This document shows positions 772 through 23,480 of a stretch of 23,743 bases of DNA, in pieces (positions within the stretch are counted from its first letter, which is position 1; every line of letters starts with the position of its first letter). Both the position numbers and the translations under genes were made by a program. The stretch covers positions 204 to 23,946 of IMG/VR virus record IMGVR_UViG_3300000525_000041. One strand, given 5' to 3'. The notes beneath the pieces are model-generated. The model was not told the DNA's origin, ran no database searches, and was given only the letters and a program-made list of their open reading frames with translations. The DNA is from a virus.

Positions 772-1797
772 TTATGCTGTAAATGTGCCGGATGTTGTGA
801 AGGTATGTGCATAGTAAGTAAGCCCGTTATTAGTGTAAGAAGTTACAGTACCGCCAGAACCAAGTTGGGTTGCGTTTTGATAACTAACAATAACAATTCC
901 AGAGCCGCCAACACCAGTTGCGCCGCCTGAAGTTCCACCGCCACCACCTCCAGTATTAGCTGTGCCTGATGTAGCTGCATTGCCACCGCCACCAACACCT
1001 CCAGTACCGCCACCTATTCCAACACCACCCCCTGCGCCACCACCACCGTACAACACGGATGCGCCTGAAATAAAACTTACAATACCAGCACCGCCATTAC
1101 CGCCAGCACCAGAGGGAGCTAACCCTGCCAAATTTGCTCCGCCTCCACCACCACCCGCAGCAACACTACTCCCATTTGCAAAAGCTCCTGCACCGTTATT
1201 GCCTTGAGATGGAGATAATGAGGGTGTGTTTCCTGTTCCAGCGGCATATGTTGTACTAAAACTTGCACCCCCGCCACCACCAGAGCCGCCATTGCCACCT
1301 GACGGACCAACTGAGCCACCCAAACCACCACCAGTTGCAGTAATTAATGAACCAAATAGTGAATTCGACCCGTTAGCTCCAGCAGCGCCACCAGCGCCTA
1401 CAGTAGCCGTAAAAGCAGTCCCTGAAGATACTCTTGCCAAAAGGGTATACACACCTCCTGCTCCACCACCACCACCAGCACCAGTATTGCCACCACCACC
1501 GCCACCTGCTACCGTTAAAACTGAAACAGAATATCCGCCAACACCCCCCCAAGCCGTTCCGTTATAAACCTCAGTAGCCACAGTCGTGCTATTAAATCGC
1601 AATTGACCTGTCACAGGGATTGCAGGACGTTGTGCGGTCGTGCCTACGGGAAGTTGTGCTGCACCCGTAGCAGAGTCAGCATTAATCAGTACGCCAGCCG
1701 CCGCCGGTACATTCATCACAAAGTTACTCGCCGTATCAACAGCGTTTAATGTGACTGAGCCACCTGCGGGTGCGTTTAAACGTACGTTACCAGCCAT
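772..1797 (-). CDS. glycine-rich tail-fibre tip / receptor-binding protein (341 aa)
   Basis: The preferred start is ATG at 1797-1795, which overlaps the upstream stop as TAATG and follows AGGATGGG at good spacing. An in-frame ATG nine bases further upstream is less likely. Residues ~1-48 form a small beta-type N-terminal block, and ~49-83 the connector LPVGTTAQRP...LRFNSTT...EVYNGTAW. Residues ~98-299 are a long polyglycine-type segment with repeated GGGG runs, ending in GSGIVIVSYQ. The last ~40 residues are Thr/Tyr-rich. Glycine-rich domains ending in IVIVSY are known from phage tail-tip adhesins, where the glycine-rich sandwich displays variable loops for receptor binding. I infer the same role here. 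The N-terminal block closely resembles the whole of the neighbouring 81-aa protein. Confidence 0.82.
   Translation of the reverse strand: MAGNVRLNAPAGGSVTLNAVDTASNFVMNVPAAAGVLINADSATGAAQLPVGTTAQRPAIPVTGQLRFNSTTVATEVYNGTAWGGVGGYSVSVLTVAGGGGGGNTGAGGGGGAGGVYTLLARVSSGTAFTATVGAGGAAGANGSNSLFGSLITATGGGLGGSVGPSGGNGGSGGGGGASFSTTYAAGTGNTPSLSPSQGNNGAGAFANGSSVAAGGGGGGANLAGLAPSGAGGNGGAGIVSFISGASVLYGGGGAGGGVGIGGGTGGVGGGGNAATSGTANTGGGGGGTSGGATGVGGSGIVIVSYQNATQLGSGGTVTSYTNNGLTYYAHTFTTSGTFTA
901..1506 (-). repeat. low-complexity polyglycine-coding tract
   Basis: On the plus strand this stretch is dominated by irregular repeats of CCACC, CCGCC and GCACC, which are glycine codons (GGT, GGC, GGA) and alanine codons on the minus strand. 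It codes the Gly-rich part of the adhesin at residues ~98-299. The repeats are imperfect and do not have a fixed period, unlike a true tandem array. Such tracts are hot spots for recombination and for length change in receptor-binding proteins. They also produce misleading proline-rich open frames on the plus strand. Confidence 0.8.
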
Positions 1798-2042
1798 TAT
1801 TCCCATCCTGTGCCGTTGTAAACTTCTACGGCATTAGTTGTTGTGTTAAATCTCATCTGACCTGTCACACCCGCTGGACGCTGTGCTGTTGTTCCGCTAG
1901 GCAAGAATAATCCACCTGTTGCAGAATTTGCATAAGACAGCACGCCATTAGCAGCTTGTACGTTTACATTTACGTTTGAAGCTGTATCTAATGGGTTGAT
2001 GTCTATCGTCCCAAATGCCAGTGTTTTAAGTTTAAGTCCCAT
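1797..2042 (-). CDS. short fibre-module protein (81 aa)
   Basis: The start is ATG at 2042-2040, overlapping the stop of the 230-aa gene as TAATG. A GTG 15 bases upstream is possible but has no advantage. The protein starts MGLKLKTLAFG. Residues ~12-46 (IDINPLDTASNVNVNV, NGVLSYANSATGG) and ~47-81 (LPSGTTAQRP, GQMRFNTTT, EVYNGTGW) match, block for block, residues 1-83 of the next gene's glycine-rich fibre. It thus looks like a duplicated fibre base plus connector that lacks the tip, or a gene that has lost its tip. The stop overlaps the next start (TAATG), so the two are probably translated together. Function as a fibre segment is inferred from the similarity. Confidence 0.75.
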   Translation of the reverse strand: MGLKLKTLAFGTIDINPLDTASNVNVNVQAANGVLSYANSATGGLFLPSGTTAQRPAGVTGQMRFNTTTNAVEVYNGTGWE

Positions 2043-2737: not shown

Positions 2738-5533
2738 TTACCTCTGTTCTTCTGGTTGATTTAATCTTTGACCAAGTTGTTGCATCAATTGTGGGTTTTG
2801 CAACAAACTACCATACAACACGGCTGGGTTAACTGTATCACCAAGTGATATACCGGGGACTCTATTGCTTAACGCTTCAGCTATTTTGAGTGCATCTTTT
2901 TGTGATGATGCTCCGGTTACATTCTTTAACGCTTTGCCACCAACATTTTTAAGCACAGGCACAGCTAAACTTGCGCCCACGCCCATTGGCGATATTCCCG
3001 CCATAGTCGCTACGCCATCAATCATAGTGCCAATTACCAAAGCGCCTGAATTGCTGTTGTTAACAGCCGTTCCAATAGGCTGATTAGTCATGTAGTTGCC
3101 AACACGCCCAATACGTTTTAATTCTTCAATCTCATCTTTATTAAAAAATACTTGTAGCTTTCTGTCACCAATTTTGTCTAGCTCTTTGTTAAAAGCCCTA
3201 GCCCCAAATTTGCCGGTTTCGTCTGTTTGACCTTTGCCAAGTGCCGTTTCTTTCAAATGCGACAAAATTGCATTTTTAGTAGCTGTTGGGTTTCCAGCCG
3301 TAGCTACCGCAGTAGCATCCGCAACAGTACCGCTTAATACAAATTTCTTAACAAAATTGTCTGGCTGTATGCCGTTAATTGTTGCTTCTACCGGAGCGGA
3401 TGATTCCTGCCAATCCATACGAGCTTTGTGAGACGCTCTGGCTTGGTTAAGTGCATCTAATAACTGCGCTGATTCTGCGTCTTTTGATTGCAAATACTTA
3501 GCGCCACCCTCAGTAACTAGCTGATTGCCGCCAAATTCATTTTTGATTGGTTTAATTTCAGTTTCATCAATAGCTTGACGAACAAGGCTAAGAGCTTGCT
3601 TTACGTTGCCATCACTTGTGCCTCGTTGCGCTTTAGCAATTGTGGTCATCAAGTTATCAATTGCGTTTGTATCAAAAGGAACGGGATACGTCTTGCCGTT
3701 TATTGTTGTTTCACCTTTAGAAATAGTGTTCAACATTGTCTTAATTTCTTCTGGCAAGAACGCTGCTTTATTGTTTGTAGCCAATAAAGTGTCAATGTTT
3801 TGCATTAAATCTGAACGATTAAGGGGAACGTCACCACCAGGCATATCTTGCGCTTGTTTATACAAAGCGCTTGTTTGTGTTTGCTTTGCTAAATCCTGAG
3901 CTTTTATGTTTGCAATACTTGCTTCACCTGCGTCAAATACGTCCGTCTTTCCCGCACCTTTAGCGTTCAAAGCATTAATAAGCGCTTGGTTGTTTGCGTT
4001 TTGTACGTTGCCCAATACCTGTAAATTTGGATTAGCAGAATTCATCCCGCTTTTTGCCAAATTCATTTCTTGTGTAATTTGTCTTGGGTCTTGCGTAATC
4101 ATGCCTTTTGTTGGCGTAGCACCCTCAATCATTCTAAAGTCTAGCAACCTACGTAAAGCATCGCCGCTTAGTTCCCCGCCAGTTTGCATTGCATTAGAAA
4201 CATCATTACGCAAAGTTCTTTGTAATTGGTCATCTAGTTTTGTAAAGTCTACGCCTGATTTACCCAAAGTAAGCGTAATCATTTGGTCAACTTGTGCGGG
4301 ACTTACTGGCGTTAAACGTTGCGTTGCAGCATTAATTACTGACTTTAATCCTAGCCCAGCCATAGGTGCAACAACACCACCAAGAATGCTTGCACCTAGC
4401 TCAAAGCCCGGACCTGCATTGTATTCCCTTGCTAAAGTTCCACCCGCACCTGCGCCAGCGCCCGAGAGCGTCTGTAATGCCGGATTAGCAGCTAACTGAC
4501 CAAGCACATTGTTGCTAACTTGGCTTGTGGCCAAAGGAGCTAATCTACCCGCCAATCCTACGCTTCCACCTGCACCCGCCATGGCTTTAGCAACATCAAA
4601 TCCCATTCTTTCAAAATTTACGCCAGATTCCATTACTGATTTTTCTTGTGGCTTTGGCAAACCAAGTAAATTAGCCAATTTTGAGGATAACTGTTCTGCT
4701 GACGAAACCTTTGGACCACCTAACGCTGTGCTAACAGACTCCATTGCCATACGAGTTGGTTCTAGTGGCATACCAATTAACGAACCCAACCCTTCAATAC
4801 CCGCCCTAGCCGTTAAGCCAAAAGGTCTTGCCAATGAGCTTGGATTAAAAGATTGTGTTGGTGTAGGTGCTACTGGCGCTTGTGTAATATTTTGAACCGG
4901 TCTAAGCGCAAATTCTTCCATTAACGCACTAAACGGGTTTGATTCGTTTGATGGTGCAACAACAGGTGCGCCAATTCTAAATTCTTCAATTAGGCTTGCA
5001 AAAGGGTTGTCTTGTTGGTTAATGCCTACAGGGTTAACGTCTGAAGTTGCCCCGCCACTTGCTACACGGTTATTTAGTTTGCTCATTACGAAATCCGATG
5101 ATTGTCGTGGCTGCGGATAAGGGCTACTTGGCAAACTTGCCCAAATTGGTCCAGACTTTTGCACAGCGGTTTGCCAATTTCCCGACAATACATCAGGCAA
5201 TATGCCTCGTTGTTTTAGTAAATTGACTGCTGCTAAGTCTTGGCTTCGTGGGCTAAAGTCCGGCAAACCTAAGTTTTTAGCTTGTTCGTCCCAAGTGTTA
5301 GATAAAAACTGATAACGCCCAGCCGCCGTTGTTTTGTTTGGCTTACCGGTTGTTTCAGTAAAGTCAAACAATTGCCTTGGATGGTCTGCTAAAGAATCTA
5401 CCTTACCGCCACCAAATAATGTGTTGTAGCCGTGTTGTGTAGTGCCTTCTGCCGCAGAAATCATGTCCAAAAAAGTACGAACATTAGGATTTTCTAATGT
5501 AGGTAATAAGTTGACAATTGCAGAATTATCCAT
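2738..5533 (-). CDS. internal virion protein with N-terminal lambda R-type lysozyme domain (931 aa)
   Basis: Residues ~16-155 match the lambda gpR / GH104 lytic transglycosylase family: AEG with candidate catalytic Glu29, HGYNTLFGG (34-42), DHPR (50-53), AAGRYQFLSNTWD (70-82), PDFSPRSQDLAAV (91-103) and WASLPSSPY (131-139). Lambda gpR itself is only ~158 aa, so here the enzyme is the head of a much larger protein. Two copies of NPFxxLxEEF follow (176-185, 199-208). Next comes a Gly/Ala-rich region (~290-400) with possible membrane-interacting segments, then a long mostly helical part. I infer a virion protein ejected at infection that opens murein, functionally like T7 gp16, rather than the lysis endolysin. 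It overlaps its upstream gene by TAATG. Confidence 0.85.
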   Translation of the reverse strand: MDNSAIVNLLPTLENPNVRTFLDMISAAEGTTQHGYNTLFGGGKVDSLADHPRQLFDFTETTGKPNKTTAAGRYQFLSNTWDEQAKNLGLPDFSPRSQDLAAVNLLKQRGILPDVLSGNWQTAVQKSGPIWASLPSSPYPQPRQSSDFVMSKLNNRVASGGATSDVNPVGINQQDNPFASLIEEFRIGAPVVAPSNESNPFSALMEEFALRPVQNITQAPVAPTPTQSFNPSSLARPFGLTARAGIEGLGSLIGMPLEPTRMAMESVSTALGGPKVSSAEQLSSKLANLLGLPKPQEKSVMESGVNFERMGFDVAKAMAGAGGSVGLAGRLAPLATSQVSNNVLGQLAANPALQTLSGAGAGAGGTLAREYNAGPGFELGASILGGVVAPMAGLGLKSVINAATQRLTPVSPAQVDQMITLTLGKSGVDFTKLDDQLQRTLRNDVSNAMQTGGELSGDALRRLLDFRMIEGATPTKGMITQDPRQITQEMNLAKSGMNSANPNLQVLGNVQNANNQALINALNAKGAGKTDVFDAGEASIANIKAQDLAKQTQTSALYKQAQDMPGGDVPLNRSDLMQNIDTLLATNNKAAFLPEEIKTMLNTISKGETTINGKTYPVPFDTNAIDNLMTTIAKAQRGTSDGNVKQALSLVRQAIDETEIKPIKNEFGGNQLVTEGGAKYLQSKDAESAQLLDALNQARASHKARMDWQESSAPVEATINGIQPDNFVKKFVLSGTVADATAVATAGNPTATKNAILSHLKETALGKGQTDETGKFGARAFNKELDKIGDRKLQVFFNKDEIEELKRIGRVGNYMTNQPIGTAVNNSNSGALVIGTMIDGVATMAGISPMGVGASLAVPVLKNVGGKALKNVTGASSQKDALKIAEALSNRVPGISLGDTVNPAVLYGSLLQNPQLMQQLGQRLNQPEEQR

Positions 5534-7062
5534 TATCGAATACCGTATTTTTGTGCCAAAGTATAAGTGTTTCCTGAACCGTCTTGTAAAGGCATTTCAA
5601 AAATAGAACCAGATATTTTGCCCCAATTTTCATTAATTGATGGCAAGTTGGAACGAATCCTTGGGTCAGTGGATGACATAGCCTTTTCGTAAAACCCTGC
5701 TTTTCTTTGATCTTGCATAGCTTTTGCTTGTGCAACATTAAGCAAGAACTGGTTTGCTTGTGGCGTATTCTTTAGCTGCGTGTAAGTCTTTTGAATGTTT
5801 TTAAAGTCATTCTCTGTTTGTGGTCCTTTTTGTTTAGAAAGAGTGTCAACTAGAGTTTCATAAACTTTTGATTCAAAAATTTGACCGTTTGTGGCAAACT
5901 TTTCAGCATCCTTAACACCTAAAGAACTTAACAAATTTGCACCTGCTAATTTAGCGTCCGTTCCAAATCCGGTTTGGAAGTTAAGACCTTGCATTATCTT
6001 AATATTTTCTAGCGAATTACCCGCCACCCTACCTGCTACTCTTGTAGGTTCTAAACTATTAGAAATCCAATCTTTATTAAGGTCTGTGTTAGTAGCCACA
6101 ACAACAGGGTTTTCAGCCGTAATGACAGGTTGATTTGTTCCTTGTGAACCGCCAACCCCCTGCGATGGTAGACCCATATTAGCGGCTTGTGTTGTTGCCT
6201 CTGTTCTGCCAGTAACGGGGTTATATCTTGTTGCCGGTGTTGTTTGCGCTTGCCCTGTGCCTTTACCAAAGGCTTCAGCTTGATTTATTGCGCCTACTGA
6301 CTGCGTGTAACCGGGCAACACGCTTGTTTGGTTTGTAATTGGGTTTGTTTGTATCCCGCCTTTTGGCGCAATAAAAGTTGGTCTGTTTGCTCCAGCAGGA
6401 ACAAGTGAACCACCTTCACTAACAACATTAGGCGCAATATAAGCATTTTTGTTAGCTAACCCTGCCGCAGCAGCACGATACTGAGGTGTTCCGGGCTGCA
6501 ACCCAGCAGCAATAAGCGCTTTCAATTCTGAACTTGGTGCTTGTTGTTCAACTAATGCTTTGGCGTATGCTTGTGGACCACCCATCGCAAACGTTAAATA
6601 ACTAAGTTTGGGGTCATTATTAATTAGTGGATAAGCAGAACCCGTACCTTGTGCAACGCCGTTCATACGGGTTGCATTGGTGTTTGTTGGTCCAACATCG
6701 CCTTGTACTGCACCACCTTGTAAAGCCAAATCTCTAGCTTTTGCAGGTTCTACGCCCCCACCCATACCAAACATATTCATCATGCGTTGGTTTTGAGCGT
6801 CAGACAAAGCAGCTTGTTTTTCAGGGATCAAATCTGATGACCTGCGTCCAATATACGCTTTAAGCAATTGGGAAAGTCCCTGTATTGGGCTAGGCGGTAC
6901 ATAATGACCCGAAACCATTTGCCCTTGAGGCTGTTCCATCAGGGCTTGTTGCATCATGATGTCAGCGTAGCGTTTGTTTTGTTCGAGCTCATATTGCTGC
7001 TTAAGAACATCGCCACCCATCATAGATGCTATTGGGTTCATCATATTTGATTGTTGTGCCAT
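5533..7062 (-). CDS. probable internal virion / structural protein (509 aa)
   Basis: I do not recognise a named domain. The N-terminus is rich in Met and Gln (MAQQSNMMNPIASMMGG) and holds a helical segment with HYVPPSPIQGLSQLLKAYIG, a motif I recall from phage genes next to internal virion proteins. The middle (~130-330) is rich in Gly, Asn, Thr, Pro and Gln and looks disordered. The C-terminal part (~330-500) is helical, with KDAEKFATNGQIFESKV and TQLKNTPQANQFLLNVAQAK. It lies between the S74-tailed protein and the lysozyme-domain protein, with TAATG overlap to the latter. In podoviruses this slot commonly holds the proteins released from the capsid to build the DNA channel; I infer that role. 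Confidence 0.7.
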   Translation of the reverse strand: MAQQSNMMNPIASMMGGDVLKQQYELEQNKRYADIMMQQALMEQPQGQMVSGHYVPPSPIQGLSQLLKAYIGRRSSDLIPEKQAALSDAQNQRMMNMFGMGGGVEPAKARDLALQGGAVQGDVGPTNTNATRMNGVAQGTGSAYPLINNDPKLSYLTFAMGGPQAYAKALVEQQAPSSELKALIAAGLQPGTPQYRAAAAGLANKNAYIAPNVVSEGGSLVPAGANRPTFIAPKGGIQTNPITNQTSVLPGYTQSVGAINQAEAFGKGTGQAQTTPATRYNPVTGRTEATTQAANMGLPSQGVGGSQGTNQPVITAENPVVVATNTDLNKDWISNSLEPTRVAGRVAGNSLENIKIMQGLNFQTGFGTDAKLAGANLLSSLGVKDAEKFATNGQIFESKVYETLVDTLSKQKGPQTENDFKNIQKTYTQLKNTPQANQFLLNVAQAKAMQDQRKAGFYEKAMSSTDPRIRSNLPSINENWGKISGSIFEMPLQDGSGNTYTLAQKYGIR

Positions 7063-10472: not shown

Positions 10473-10847
10473 ATGAAACAATGGCGTGATGTTTTGGGTT
10501 TGTGGAAAAACAACAAAGTAACAATTTGCCGACCACATAAACTTGTTATGGAAGCCTTTGTTAGTATTAAACCAGACGGAATGGAATGTTGTCATTTCGA
10601 TGGAAACCCACAAAATAATCATCTAAGCAATCTTAGATGGGATACTTCAAAAAACAATCATGCCGACAAAATTAGACAGGGGACAACTAACCGTGGTGAA
10701 AATTGCGACACTGCAAAATTAACATTAGAACAAGTTAAATCTATACGTAATGATAATCGACTTCAAAGACTTATAGCTGCTGATTATAAAATAGCCGAAA
10801 GCATGATTAGCAGAATAAAGTCTGGCAAACGATGGGCATATGACTAA
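10473..10847 (+). CDS. HNH homing endonuclease (124 aa), antisense between adaptor and nozzle genes
   Basis: This is the only convincing plus-strand gene. Residues ~10-62 form an HNH_3-type nuclease: GLWKNN, PHKLVMEAF (His22), GMECCHFDGNPQNN with His41 and Asp43, then LSNLRWDTSKNN (Asn53, Trp56, Asn61/62). After a short linker (RQGTTNRGENCDTAKLT) the C-terminus (~84-122) is a helix-turn-helix ending SMISRIKSGKRW, as in many free-standing phage HNH enzymes that bind an intron-less target. The N-terminal NUMOD4 part (usually WK...GF...YEVSN) is absent: only MKQWRDVL precedes the nuclease core. Its TAA at 10845-10847 overlaps the TAG of the adaptor gene on the other strand. I infer a selfish endonuclease that cuts uninvaded alleles near this junction. 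Confidence 0.9.
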   Translation: MKQWRDVLGLWKNNKVTICRPHKLVMEAFVSIKPDGMECCHFDGNPQNNHLSNLRWDTSKNNHADKIRQGTTNRGENCDTAKLTLEQVKSIRNDNRLQRLIAADYKIAESMISRIKSGKRWAYD

Positions 10848-19320: not shown

Positions 19321-19623
19321 TTACGAAAAGATGCCAACAGCAATAGCAGTAACCCCTGCGCCTGTCGTAACTTTCCAACCTGTAGTTTTCGACGCAGCAT
19401 TAACGTCAATGCTATAGACACCCGCAGGTGTTGAAGCTGGCATTAGTGCAATAGAAGTCACACCATCAACCAACGTAACGGTACTTGTAGCCGTTGTGTT
19501 GACCGTAACAATGATTCGATGCAAGTAATCACCTGCTGCACCTAAACCGCCTAACATTTGCGCTGTTTGACTGGCTGCAACTGTCTCGTATGGATAACTA
19601 TAATCTCTTGATACGCCACTCAT
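19321..19623 (-). CDS. small beta-rich virion protein (100 aa)
   Basis: The start overlaps the terminase stop as ATGA. The sequence has MSGVSRDYSYPYETVAASQTA, then MLGGLGAAGDYLHRIIVTVN, alternating strands (STVTLVDGVTSIALMP, YSIDVNA) and a last block TGWKVTTGAGVTAIAVGIF. A GDYLHR-IIVT core and a W-VTTG-GV-AI-IG-F end recur, as far as I recall, in small structural proteins encoded between terminase and portal genes. There is no enzymatic motif. I infer a minor virion or decoration protein, with function unknown. Confidence 0.72.
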   Translation of the reverse strand: MSGVSRDYSYPYETVAASQTAQMLGGLGAAGDYLHRIIVTVNTTATSTVTLVDGVTSIALMPASTPAGVYSIDVNAASKTTGWKVTTGAGVTAIAVGIFS

Positions 19624-20954
19624 ATTCGTTTACTCCTAGATGGTTGATGGGTTGCCCACATATCGTTTAATGAAACTTGGTTATCTGGTCCAACCATCAG
19701 AGGTTTAACAATGTCTGCTGGCTTAACTTTAGGTTCGTCTCTGTAGGCGATTGCCATCATTCTGAACGCATCAGCCGGATGTGATGTCCAATCGTGCCTT
19801 GGTGAAGCTCTAAACGCTTTCTTATCCTCGTCATACTCACGCTGATATTGTTTAAGTGCTTCAACACCTTCATAACACTTTTCGGCATCAAAGTAGCAAT
19901 AAGGCAAAGCCATACGAACGGCTTGAATACCATCTTGAACACTCAGATTAGGGACAATTGTCATGTTTCCAATGCCTAAAAAGTCTGCTAATTGCTCAAT
20001 TACGCTTCTTTCACTTGCCAATGTCTTTGCTTTCGCATCGTGTGGCAAATGATGAATACCGTATTTATATGGTTTATTTAACAAAACTTGTGCAATTTCT
20101 GCAATATTAGCACCAGAAATAGCAAAATAGTCGATTATATGTACTTCACCTCGGATTACTTGATACCACCAAATAGCCGTATCGTCTCGTCTACCTAAGT
20201 CCCAACTAGTGTGTACTGGAACATTACGGTCATGCGGTACAGATGTAATCCTGCCTTCTAGCTCTGCATCACGTAACTCATTGCCCCAATACGCTCCCAA
20301 TAGGGCTGCATCGAACGAGCATTCATACTCTTGTTGGTATTGGTCATCAGAAATTTGTGCAGCAGCAGCTTTAAGTTCGCTGTCTAGCAATAGTCCTGAT
20401 TGTGATGCTGGTAGCTTTAAGACAAACCATTCACCCTTAGACCTGTTAGCAGTCTCATAGATGCTCCAAAACTGGTTCTTGCCCTTTGGAGTACCACCAA
20501 AGACTGCCCAACCTTGTTTGTCAGATAATGTTGCACGAATGACGTTACCCCATACTGAGGGCTTGAAGTCACCATACTCATCGAGGTAAACACCATCAAA
20601 GCCTAGCCCTCGCATAGCGTCAGCATTGTCAGCACCAAATAGACGTATCTTTGCACCGTTGATTAGCTCAACCATCAAATCCGATTCATTAGATGATTTG
20701 ACTAGTGGCGCAGCAAAGTGCTTAAGGTAATCCCAAACCACAGACTTAGCTTGGCTGCGGTACGGGGCAATGTAACCAAACAGAGGATATTGGCTTTTGC
20801 TCATAATTGCTGCACGAATGATGTCGTTAATAGCCGCTACAGTCTTTCCTGCCCGTCTATGCGCGACTAAACACGCCCACCTTTGTGAACGGTTGTGGAA
20901 CGGCATAAAGGGACTGCGTGGGTCATACGGAAGCGTTACTTCTCGTTTTGCCAC
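19620..20954 (-). CDS. terL: terminase large subunit (444 aa)
   Basis: The protein carries a P-loop-type Walker A (AHRRAGKT, 31-38, Lys37), a Walker B (GVYLDE, 121-126, Asp125/Glu126) and the coupling motif GGTPKG (153-158). The C-terminal RNase H-like nuclease has Asp252 in SWDLGRRDDTA, Asp306 in HLPHDAKAK and Asp395 in HPADAFR. It drives ATP-dependent packaging and cuts the concatemer. The length is normal. The best start is GTG at 20954-20952 after TGGTGG, overlapping the small subunit gene by 19 bases. No break is seen. Terminase class (headful or site-specific) cannot be told from here. Confidence 0.95.
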   Translation of the reverse strand: MAKREVTLPYDPRSPFMPFHNRSQRWACLVAHRRAGKTVAAINDIIRAAIMSKSQYPLFGYIAPYRSQAKSVVWDYLKHFAAPLVKSSNESDLMVELINGAKIRLFGADNADAMRGLGFDGVYLDEYGDFKPSVWGNVIRATLSDKQGWAVFGGTPKGKNQFWSIYETANRSKGEWFVLKLPASQSGLLLDSELKAAAAQISDDQYQQEYECSFDAALLGAYWGNELRDAELEGRITSVPHDRNVPVHTSWDLGRRDDTAIWWYQVIRGEVHIIDYFAISGANIAEIAQVLLNKPYKYGIHHLPHDAKAKTLASERSVIEQLADFLGIGNMTIVPNLSVQDGIQAVRMALPYCYFDAEKCYEGVEALKQYQREYDEDKKAFRASPRHDWTSHPADAFRMMAIAYRDEPKVKPADIVKPLMVGPDNQVSLNDMWATHQPSRSKRI

Positions 20955-21841: not shown

Positions 21842-22198
21842 CTATTTGAGATGTTTAAGTTTGTAAAGGGTTGAATCAATTAAACTACAAATCTCATCAA
21901 CAATGTTTTGTAATTGTGATTCACTAGGCAATTCTATACGAATGTCTTCAACAAAGTCTTTCATAGCCGTAATGTATTTTAATGGGTCTTTGGCTAATGG
22001 GAAGTCGCTTGGATAAGCCTTAATCACTTCATAGCACCCTTGATAGACTTCAGCGTATGTGTCAGCCAAGTCTACTATTTGCTCATAATACTTTTGTAGC
22101 GCCTTGTGTTTAGCGTAACTGTCTGTCTGTAGGTGCATAAAATGTGCGTTTGTTGCGCTATGCAGCAATGTGGCAACAAATGTCGCTGGGTAATCCAT
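21842..22198 (-). CDS. DUF5856-like, possibly ferritin-like helical protein (118 aa)
   Basis: The start follows AGAGGAATAAGC. The pattern ATLLHSATNAHFMHLQTDSY, then AKHKALQKYYEQIVDLADTY and AEVYQGCYEVI, matches my recollection of DUF5856, a phage family predicted to be a ferritin/Dps-like four-helix bundle. Several His and Glu residues lie at helix positions (His13, His19, His22, His31, Glu39, Glu50) that could bind metal, as in that fold. The second half is helical with two acidic helices. A role in protecting DNA from oxidation or in iron handling is conceivable, but unproven. Its leader is the end of the broken gene at 22201-22308. Confidence 0.68.
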   Translation of the reverse strand: MDYPATFVATLLHSATNAHFMHLQTDSYAKHKALQKYYEQIVDLADTYAEVYQGCYEVIKAYPSDFPLAKDPLKYITAMKDFVEDIRIELPSESQLQNIVDEICSLIDSTLYKLKHLK

Positions 22199-22200
22199 GC

Positions 22201-22308
22201 TTATTCCTCTGTGTAAATAACGACAGTACAGCCGCCTTTGGGCTTAATTTTGCCACGGGCTACCTGTATTTTATCAAATTGCTCGTCATTATCATAGACC
22301 CCAGCGTC
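22201..22308 (-). pseudogene. orphan 3' end of a gene split by the homing endonuclease
   Basis: Directly after the TAA of the endonuclease, and in the same frame, an open frame of 35 codons runs to TAA at 22203-22201. It reads DAGVYDNDEQ, then FDKIQVARGKIKPKGG and CTVVIYTEE. No ATG, GTG or TTG exists in this frame before the end, so it cannot be a gene by itself. The balanced composition and tidy stop, with the AGAGGAA binding site of the next gene inside its last codons, look like a real gene end. The 5' part is not found between 23167 and 23207. I infer that the endonuclease gene replaced or displaced it. Confidence 0.55.
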
Positions 22309-23166
22309 TTATTCCCAACCTTCGATTGTATTTTGATATTGTTTTTCTAATGCTTTATATTCTTTTGTATCTACTAACACTAAAGTTACGTTAGGGTGAT
22401 ATTTAGCCATGCGTTTAATTTTGGTTTTGCTTCTATCGTCCATCCATCCTTTGACTTCATGGTAGGTTTCTGTTCCGTCAATTTCTTTAACCTTAAAGTC
22501 TGGTAAGTAACTCATGCAACCACGCTTGATACCTTTAAACCAAAACGTATCAGGTTCATGTAGCCACCCTGCAATCAATCCTTGCGTTCTCATCCATTCT
22601 AAATATCTAGCATAATTTGCTTCCCACCTTGACCGATAGTATTTTTTGTAACCACCTATTTCACGCCACGCTGCTTTCCACGATGCGTTAGCTCTGTTCA
22701 TTGTTTGTTTACTACCATTAATTGACGCACGTTTAGAATAAGCATCTAATTGTTCTTCGCTCATAGATTGCCACATTTGTTTTGATTTTTCAGATAATAT
22801 TTTTTTGGTCGCTTCAGTATGTTTCATGCCCAAAGCTCCTTTTGGGTGTCCTTTCTCTACAAACCTTGCTTTAACTTTTTCAGAAAGGCTTTTTTTTCCA
22901 TCTTCAGTCATAACGCATAAATTTGTAACCCTAAAATTTTTCATAAAAACAGAATGTTCAGGTCTAATTTTTCCTGTCATTTTTTTAGAGTGTTGTTTTT
23001 GTTTTTCTTGCCAAGCAATGCTTACGCCTCTTGCCTGAAGTTTAAGTGTTGATGCTTTTGTTCTTATTTGGCTTTCTTTTAAACTCATAACCTCACAGCA
23101 CCAAACTTTACCGTATTTAGGGTAATTTTCAGTTAAAAATTGTATTTGTTCGTTTGTCCATTTCAT
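22309..23166 (-). CDS. free-standing homing-type endonuclease: HTH, NUMOD3, PD-(D/E)xK nuclease (285 aa)
   Basis: Residues ~1-45 (MKWTNEQIQFLTENYPKYG, then CCEVMSLKESQIRTKASTL) look like a Myb/SANT-type helix-turn-helix. Residues ~107-131 (HPKGALGMKHTEATKKILSE) are a NUMOD3 DNA-contact motif typical of homing endonucleases. Residues ~174-262 match a PD-(D/E)xK nuclease: RSRWEANYARYLEW (Glu182), SYLPDFKVKE (Pro222-Asp223) and YHEVKGWMDD (Glu237-Lys239). This combination implies a mobile endonuclease that cuts a chosen DNA site. It has no Shine-Dalgarno before ATG 23166. A promoter sits directly before it and a cut gene end lies after it, both signs of insertion. A non-mobile nuclease is the alternative. 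Confidence 0.85.
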   Translation of the reverse strand: MKWTNEQIQFLTENYPKYGKVWCCEVMSLKESQIRTKASTLKLQARGVSIAWQEKQKQHSKKMTGKIRPEHSVFMKNFRVTNLCVMTEDGKKSLSEKVKARFVEKGHPKGALGMKHTEATKKILSEKSKQMWQSMSEEQLDAYSKRASINGSKQTMNRANASWKAAWREIGGYKKYYRSRWEANYARYLEWMRTQGLIAGWLHEPDTFWFKGIKRGCMSYLPDFKVKEIDGTETYHEVKGWMDDRSKTKIKRMAKYHPNVTLVLVDTKEYKALEKQYQNTIEGWE

Positions 23167-23172
23167 TTGCTG

Positions 23173-23201
23173 ATTTTAACAAAAGACTTAAATCTTGTAA
23201 A
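23173..23201 (-). promoter_or_regulatory. sigma70-type extended -10 promoter for the endonuclease gene
   Basis: On the minus strand, TTTACA (23201-23196) and TAAAAT (23178-23173) are 17 bases apart, each a 5/6 match to consensus. TG stands one base before the -10, as in extended -10 promoters. The expected start point is the A of the ATG (23166), so the message may be leaderless, which agrees with the lack of a Shine-Dalgarno. Confidence 0.68.
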
Positions 23202-23207
23202 TGTTTT

Positions 23208-23480
23208 TTAATAACATAGTAGCGCCTCTGTTTGGGCTAATAAATCTTCTTCAGTTACGCCATAACGCTCTGAAAACGCTTTCTTGCCTAAACCATGTAC
23301 GCCACTATTACCCGTGTGATGCTCTGGGCATAGCGGAATTACTGGTGCGTTTATACGTTTCATGCCAAGTCTGCGGATGTGGTGAATGTGGCTTGGGGTT
23401 TCCCCATATTCCAAATGTCTGCACAAACTACAGCCTAGTTCCGCAATCTTTGCGTACTGTTCACGTTGTGCCTTTGTCAT
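23208..23480 (-). CDS. Ref-like HNH nuclease (90 aa)
   Basis: The pattern GCSLCRHL (Cys17, Cys20), HIHHIRRLGMKR (His31, His33, His34), VIPLCPEHHTGNSGVHGLG (Cys51, His54, His55, His62) and KKAFSERYGVTEEDLL is that of the Ref family, HNH-type nucleases first described in phage P1 that cut DNA within RecA filaments. The zinc-type Cys/His set and the HH pair are visible. The P1 protein is longer and has an extra N-terminal part; this one is a compact version. It starts in an ATGA overlap with the 69-aa gene. I infer a role in phage recombination or in making targeted breaks with host RecA. Confidence 0.85.
   Translation of the reverse strand: MTKAQREQYAKIAELGCSLCRHLEYGETPSHIHHIRRLGMKRINAPVIPLCPEHHTGNSGVHGLGKKAFSERYGVTEEDLLAQTEALLCY

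Follow-up and report, generated by a model that had tools for sequence, protein, structure and literature searches.

In the viral window, a stretch of 23,743 nucleotides that makes up most of a 23.9-kb virus record (IMG/VR IMGVR_UViG_3300000525_000041), the gene of a 285-aa PD-(D/E)xK nuclease occupies the place of rusA, the gene for a Holliday-junction resolvase. As read from sequence comparison with relatives, this slot once contained rusA, of which the 5' and central parts were replaced and the 3' end was kept, and the event is recurrent. The preferred reading, with a probability of roughly 0.6, is that rusA has repeatedly been displaced in situ by a nuclease, which probably resolves junctions in its stead. 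The features of the locus are listed in Table 1.

Table 1. Features of the displaced rusA locus, in coordinates of the window.
Feature	Position	Strand	Description
DUF5856 gene	21842..22198	-	PF19174 8e-24; downstream neighbour, anchor of the slot census
rusA remnant	22201..22308	-	last 35 codons (RusA residues ~82-116) and stop; without start codon
285-aa nuclease gene	22309..23166	-	HTH-like helices at the N-terminus, NUMOD3-like linker region, C-terminal PD-(D/E)xK domain
Nuclease leader	23167..23207	-	~40 bp, homologous to the leader of L002-L004
Ref-like RecA-dependent nuclease gene	23208..23480	-	PF16786 2e-9; upstream neighbour
ATG at the former rusA start-codon position (probable)	23215..23217	-	overlaps the end of the Ref-like gene; aligned with L104, L135 and L082

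The nuclease gene closes with a TAA at 22309-22311, followed in frame by 35 codons (22308-22204; DAGVYDNDEQFDKIQVARGKIKPKGGCTVVIYTEE) and a second TAA at 22201-22203. No ATG, GTG or TTG is found in frame within these codons, and the Shine-Dalgarno sequence GAGGA of the DUF5856 gene, which starts at 22198, lies within the final codons. This is the arrangement that an earlier sequence-only reading had described, and its labels for the Ref-like and DUF5856-like neighbours agree with the Pfam matches in Table 1. A 35-codon open stretch says little by itself, and the weight rests on its homology to RusA. Among PHROG profiles, the fragment matches the C-terminal part of phrog_34 (RusA-like Holliday junction resolvase, E=1.4e-3) and also phrog_1532, an unannotated family that matches intact RusA too. 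In a tblastn comparison with the intact RusA of locus L104, it is 67% identical over residues 83-115 (E=1.7e-11); it aligns to the intact rusA of relatives at the DNA level as well, scores 35.5 bits with our own RusA profile and includes the DDxQ region of the RusA C-terminus. By this homology, the orphan codons are the C-terminus of RusA (PF05866, phrog_34). Intact copies fill the slot in relatives, whereas the window gene is destroyed: residues 1-81, including those corresponding to D69 and D71 of intact relatives, are gone, and no complete enzyme is encoded.

A scan of IMG/VR for relatives of the DUF5856 gene yields about 80 loci. In many of them (L104, L108, L112, L119, L143 and others), an intact RusA of 116-120 aa precedes DUF5856 and ends at most 8 bases from it; its start often overlaps, by a few bases, a Ref-like gene immediately upstream. 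The longer intact homologue that the sequence-only reading had proposed to look for, ending at the same residues between these two genes, is therefore RusA. The companion suggestion, that the Ref-like gene and the nuclease travelled together, finds no support, since Ref precedes intact rusA in relatives; the Ref-like gene probably occupied its place already when the nuclease arrived, so that co-travel need not be assumed. In some relatives it is replaced by other genes.

By alignment, rusA in the window is replaced from about its start codon (codons 1-2) to about codon 81 by the nuclease gene and its leader, which arrived together. The ATG overlapping the end of the Ref-like gene is probably the 5' scar of the lost gene, as suggested by its alignment with three relatives. 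The split gene proposed earlier thus stands in that a 3' end is left and a 5' part is lost, but the gene has been replaced over this span, not merely split. The leader contains a promoter-like site, TTTACA-17-TAAAAT with a TG (23201-23173). Such sites are enriched before nucleases of the family (12/75 versus 37/1371), with AT-rich intergenic sequence as a confounder. In L002-L005, a nuclease of 70-72% identity occupies the same slot, and the RusA remnant behind its stop comprises only 14 codons (IKSGGGCTIVIAIL, then a stop), rusA being lost to codon 102. At the DNA level this tail differs very little from the intact rusA of L108, which indicates that the event there is recent and that its junction differs from that in the window.

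The replacement can be followed directly in a DNA-level before/after pair. L268, closely related to L015, has an intact rusA. The two match over a stretch of 94 bp ending at rusA codon 5 or 6 (94%), and the match resumes from about codon 74 onward (84%). Between these points, L015 carries an inverted nuclease gene in place of rusA codons ~6-73, so that an internal rusA segment is replaced. At one junction, a microhomology of ~10 bp, TTATTTT(T)CCC, falls on the terminal Trp-Glu codons of the nuclease.

RusA debris recurs beside this nuclease family. The PF05866 scan is too insensitive for fragments (it found L015 only), and our own RusA profiles were run instead against the regions flanking 79 non-redundant nucleases, with 1185 windows of the same contigs as controls. 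Debris scoring above 8.3 bits is present in 20 of 152 nuclease flanks and in none of the 1185 controls (Fisher p=4e-20). At least 19 of the 79 non-redundant lineages carry it, a count that includes L002 on DNA evidence, its profile score being just 5 bits; the remaining 60 are without debris at this strict threshold, and most of the records examined are fragments. In 19 of the 20 flanks the polarity is as expected on the coding strand, with RusA N-termini upstream and C-termini downstream; the exception is L015, where the nuclease is inverted. Tails are found in L006, L009, L017/L076, L039/L044, L049/L050, L079, L249 and L252, and heads in L046, L244, L027 and L028. Both ends surround the nuclease in L034 and in L245, which lies in a betaproteobacterial MAG and has the head MKLSFTVPGNPCGKGRPRFARKGNHMTAYT and the tail NGIVYRDDKQVVTLAVMKIYAEMPRVEVEV. 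The tails fall into at least two RusA subtypes, those of L049, L050 and L245 matching Pseudomonas phage RusA. Flank matches of 2-8 bits are not separated from chance by polarity, and cases that are RusA-like by eye, such as L058, L047, L052, L054, L066, L075, L164 and L225, are left uncounted. A scan with the gene downstream in L050 returned L050 and L049 only. Taken as a whole, the comparison shows that this nuclease family has displaced rusA on many independent occasions, affecting several RusA subtypes and inserting in both orientations.

In L018, a RusA head is fused in frame to the nuclease (4890-5852) and scores above the threshold; in L045 (315-1343) and L225, N-terminal RusA residues in frame with the nuclease are recognized by eye only. 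Such fusions would yield hybrid proteins. The tail of L039 (4885-4990) contains a nonsense codon, RQ*LRPGG, where the near-identical contig L044 (3063-3177) reads RQELRPGG, which indicates that the remnant is decaying.

The nuclease itself has the hallmarks of the PD-(D/E)xK superfamily, namely the E...PD...(D/E)xK motif and a restriction-endonuclease fold, with E182, P222-D223 and E237-V-K239 invariant in an alignment of 41 nuclease sequences. It matches PHROG_190, ‘Holliday junction resolvase’, at E=5e-21. The match to DUF1064 (PF06356) is weak for the window protein (20.5 bits against a curated cut-off of 24.7), and all 41 aligned nucleases match at E<=0.5, the best at 2e-9. A prediction from 2005 likened the DUF1064 family to TnsA and T7 endonuclease I (PMC1189080). 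The nuclease shares with DUF1064/PHROG_190 the catalytic core E...PD...ExK and differs in its added N-terminal HTH and NUMOD3-like parts; junction cleavage is predicted. The predicted structure has a mean pLDDT of 84 and a pTM of 0.47. Its best structural match is TnsA (E 9e-4), with weaker matches to VRR_NUC, FAN1 and T7 endonuclease I (E 0.27-0.74 for the endonuclease I structures); a phmmer search against the PDB gave coincidental cytochrome oxidase matches in the linker and nothing else. The resolvase label is thus a prediction from remote similarity of profile and modelled fold. Of the HTH-NUMOD3-PD-(D/E)xK architecture assigned earlier, the catalytic domain is borne out, and NUMOD3 is weak: the profile has no match in the window protein and matches 11 of the 41 homologues, with a best E of 0.0012. 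Among related nucleases, dN/dS is 0.05-0.16, indicating purifying selection and a gene that is maintained.

The slot before DUF5856 was examined across 78 loci (L081-L159 and L002-L005), a set that includes near-duplicate and unfinished contigs and whose counts ignore relatedness. It holds RusA in 49, an Hjc-like protein in 20, the nuclease in five and no recognized gene in four. The Hjc-like occupants are small PD-(D/E)xK proteins (phrog_93, phrog_5702, phrog_6591), and the three types of occupant are mutually unrelated nucleases of resolvase type. None of the 50 nuclease contigs tested contains intact RusA, which occurs in 22 of the 36 DUF5856-linked contigs that lack the nuclease; its absence from the former follows from the destruction of rusA as well as from functional redundancy. 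PF08774 (VRR_NUC) is negative or sub-threshold in both sets, and because it misses the Hjc-like occupants, its exclusivity is uninformative. Together, the census and the absence of RusA make the slot look reserved for exactly one junction-cutting nuclease. Takeover of the RusA function is the likeliest explanation, judging from these two observations, purifying selection, and the remote fold and profile matches.

The displacement can be reconstructed as follows. An ancestral phage carried rusA between the Ref-like and DUF5856 genes, and the gene of a PD-(D/E)xK nuclease, bringing a leader of its own, replaced it from the first codons to about codon 81, as comparison with relatives shows. The 3' end survived, in the window presumably because it holds the start signals of DUF5856. 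The nuclease would be a branched-DNA nuclease able to do the job of RusA, and this ability would explain why the phages survive the swap. Either the nuclease or its recombination route may be directed to rusA, via homing-like cutting or microhomology. Repeated landing inside rusA suggests such targeting, at a confidence below that for takeover. The full combination, in which a rusA-seeking mobile nuclease destroys the resolvase gene and supplies the lost activity, so that the invader becomes the functional replacement repeatedly in unrelated phages, is a tentative proposal that we hold to be possible.

Two rival explanations concern the history of the fragment. Its position in frame after the TAA would also fit a nonsense mutation inside a longer nuclease whose own C-terminus is the 35-aa segment, the alternative that the sequence-only reading had itself named. 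This is refuted: the 41 aligned homologues, down to 41% identity, end at a conserved Trp-Glu or a few residues beyond and all lack the segment, so that the nuclease does end at this TAA. The RusA tail lies in another frame in L006, L017, L044 and L034, and the segment is identified as RusA. A single early insertion into rusA that was passed on vertically while the rusA ends slowly decayed is largely refuted. The window and L002 cluster in the nuclease tree and those two could share an event, but the tails match the local RusA subtype, and in L002-L005 they hardly differ from the intact rusA of close relatives, yet the nucleases differ by 28-60%. On the nuclease tree, the debris label changes 14 times, with at least six changes forced by well-supported branches. 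These label changes, together with the differing subtypes and junctions and one inversion, make a single ancient insertion very unlikely.

Two further explanations accept the recurrence and dispute its cause. Untargeted illegitimate recombination, by which a nuclease with a role in defence, restriction or elsewhere entered a merely dispensable rusA via microhomology, is compatible with the microhomology in L015/L268 and with the variation of the junctions. Chance, however, fails to explain the excess of debris in nuclease flanks over the controls, and other dispensable genes should have been struck equally, yet no convincing Hjc-like debris lies beside the nucleases; we regard this account as improbable. 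Alternatively, a selfish homing endonuclease could cut rusA and be copied into the break, the loss of rusA being collateral and its function not replaced. Uninterrupted rusA is present in relatives, and several observations argue for homing: the NUMOD3-like segment in some members, the repeated landing inside rusA of several subtypes, tail junctions that commonly fall at RusA residues 79-91 beside the conserved DDxQ motif, the leader with its own promoter-like site, and the precedent of F-CphI, a homing endonuclease with a resolvase motif (PMC6083498). Against it, there is no fixed insertion site, the junctions ranging over about residues 74-103 on one side and 1-30 on the other; the insert of L015 is inverted; the central part of rusA is lost every time, unlike in clean homing; and the nuclease persists under purifying selection in place of rusA. 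We consider this account unlikely as a whole. The homing-type character assigned by the sequence-only reading is favoured by the repeated choice of rusA and the NUMOD3-like parts and disfavoured by the varying junctions, and homing-like targeting of rusA is a plausible conjecture. An intron-encoded endonuclease is rejected, as Rfam detects no self-splicing intron in the 14 sources searched (the window, L002, L006, L009, L015, L017, L023, L034, L044, L046, L049, L050, L218 and L249), a result that also counts against classical homing. Displacement of rusA with probable takeover of its function remains the preferred reading.

Other features of the window were noted. An HNH_3 endonuclease gene at 10473-10847 (+; PF13392 E 9e-7, phrog_59 E 8e-24) runs in the opposite direction to the virion genes around it and matches only the middle of the profile, and is thus apparently truncated at the N-terminus; it is possibly a second mobile nuclease of the same phage. 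At 772-1806 (-), a glycine-rich fibre-like protein of 344 aa is encoded opposite long proline-rich open frames, which are probably a composition effect. The terminase (19620-20954, -) has Rhodoferax phage P26218 among its nearest named isolates (45% identity), and this similarity points to a freshwater betaproteobacterium as a possible host.

As a rule, free-standing homing endonucleases that lie close to essential phage genes do not disrupt the adjacent gene. F-CphI is reported to act at an intron insertion site in psbA and not to take the place of a resolvase gene. Like the nuclease described here, F-CphI is a free-standing phage nuclease using a resolvase-type active site, which in its case is the T4 endonuclease VII motif and differs from PD-(D/E)xK (PMC6083498). 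The free-standing homing endonucleases of T4 and ICP1 likewise occur in replication or recombination regions and are lineage-specific in presence (PMC10448857, which does not mention RusA or resolvases); here, in contrast, the slot gene is destroyed and displaced. Among open-access papers, no report of a PD-(D/E)xK nuclease displacing rusA was found. Phage genes that harbour homing endonucleases, homing enzymes of resolvase type and exchanges of resolvase genes are already known; what appears new against this background is that one nuclease family has displaced rusA in place time and again and left legible scars.

Non-orthologous displacement, in which an unrelated gene takes over the same job, is usually inferred from patterns of presence and absence. 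In this family, by contrast, the scar of the displaced gene can still be read in many independent cases, and a DNA-level before/after pair is available. In conclusion, these loci make testable the idea that a homing-style nuclease, being itself able to resolve junctions, can spread by targeting a resolvase gene. They also provide a natural series of junctions for studying module swapping in phages.
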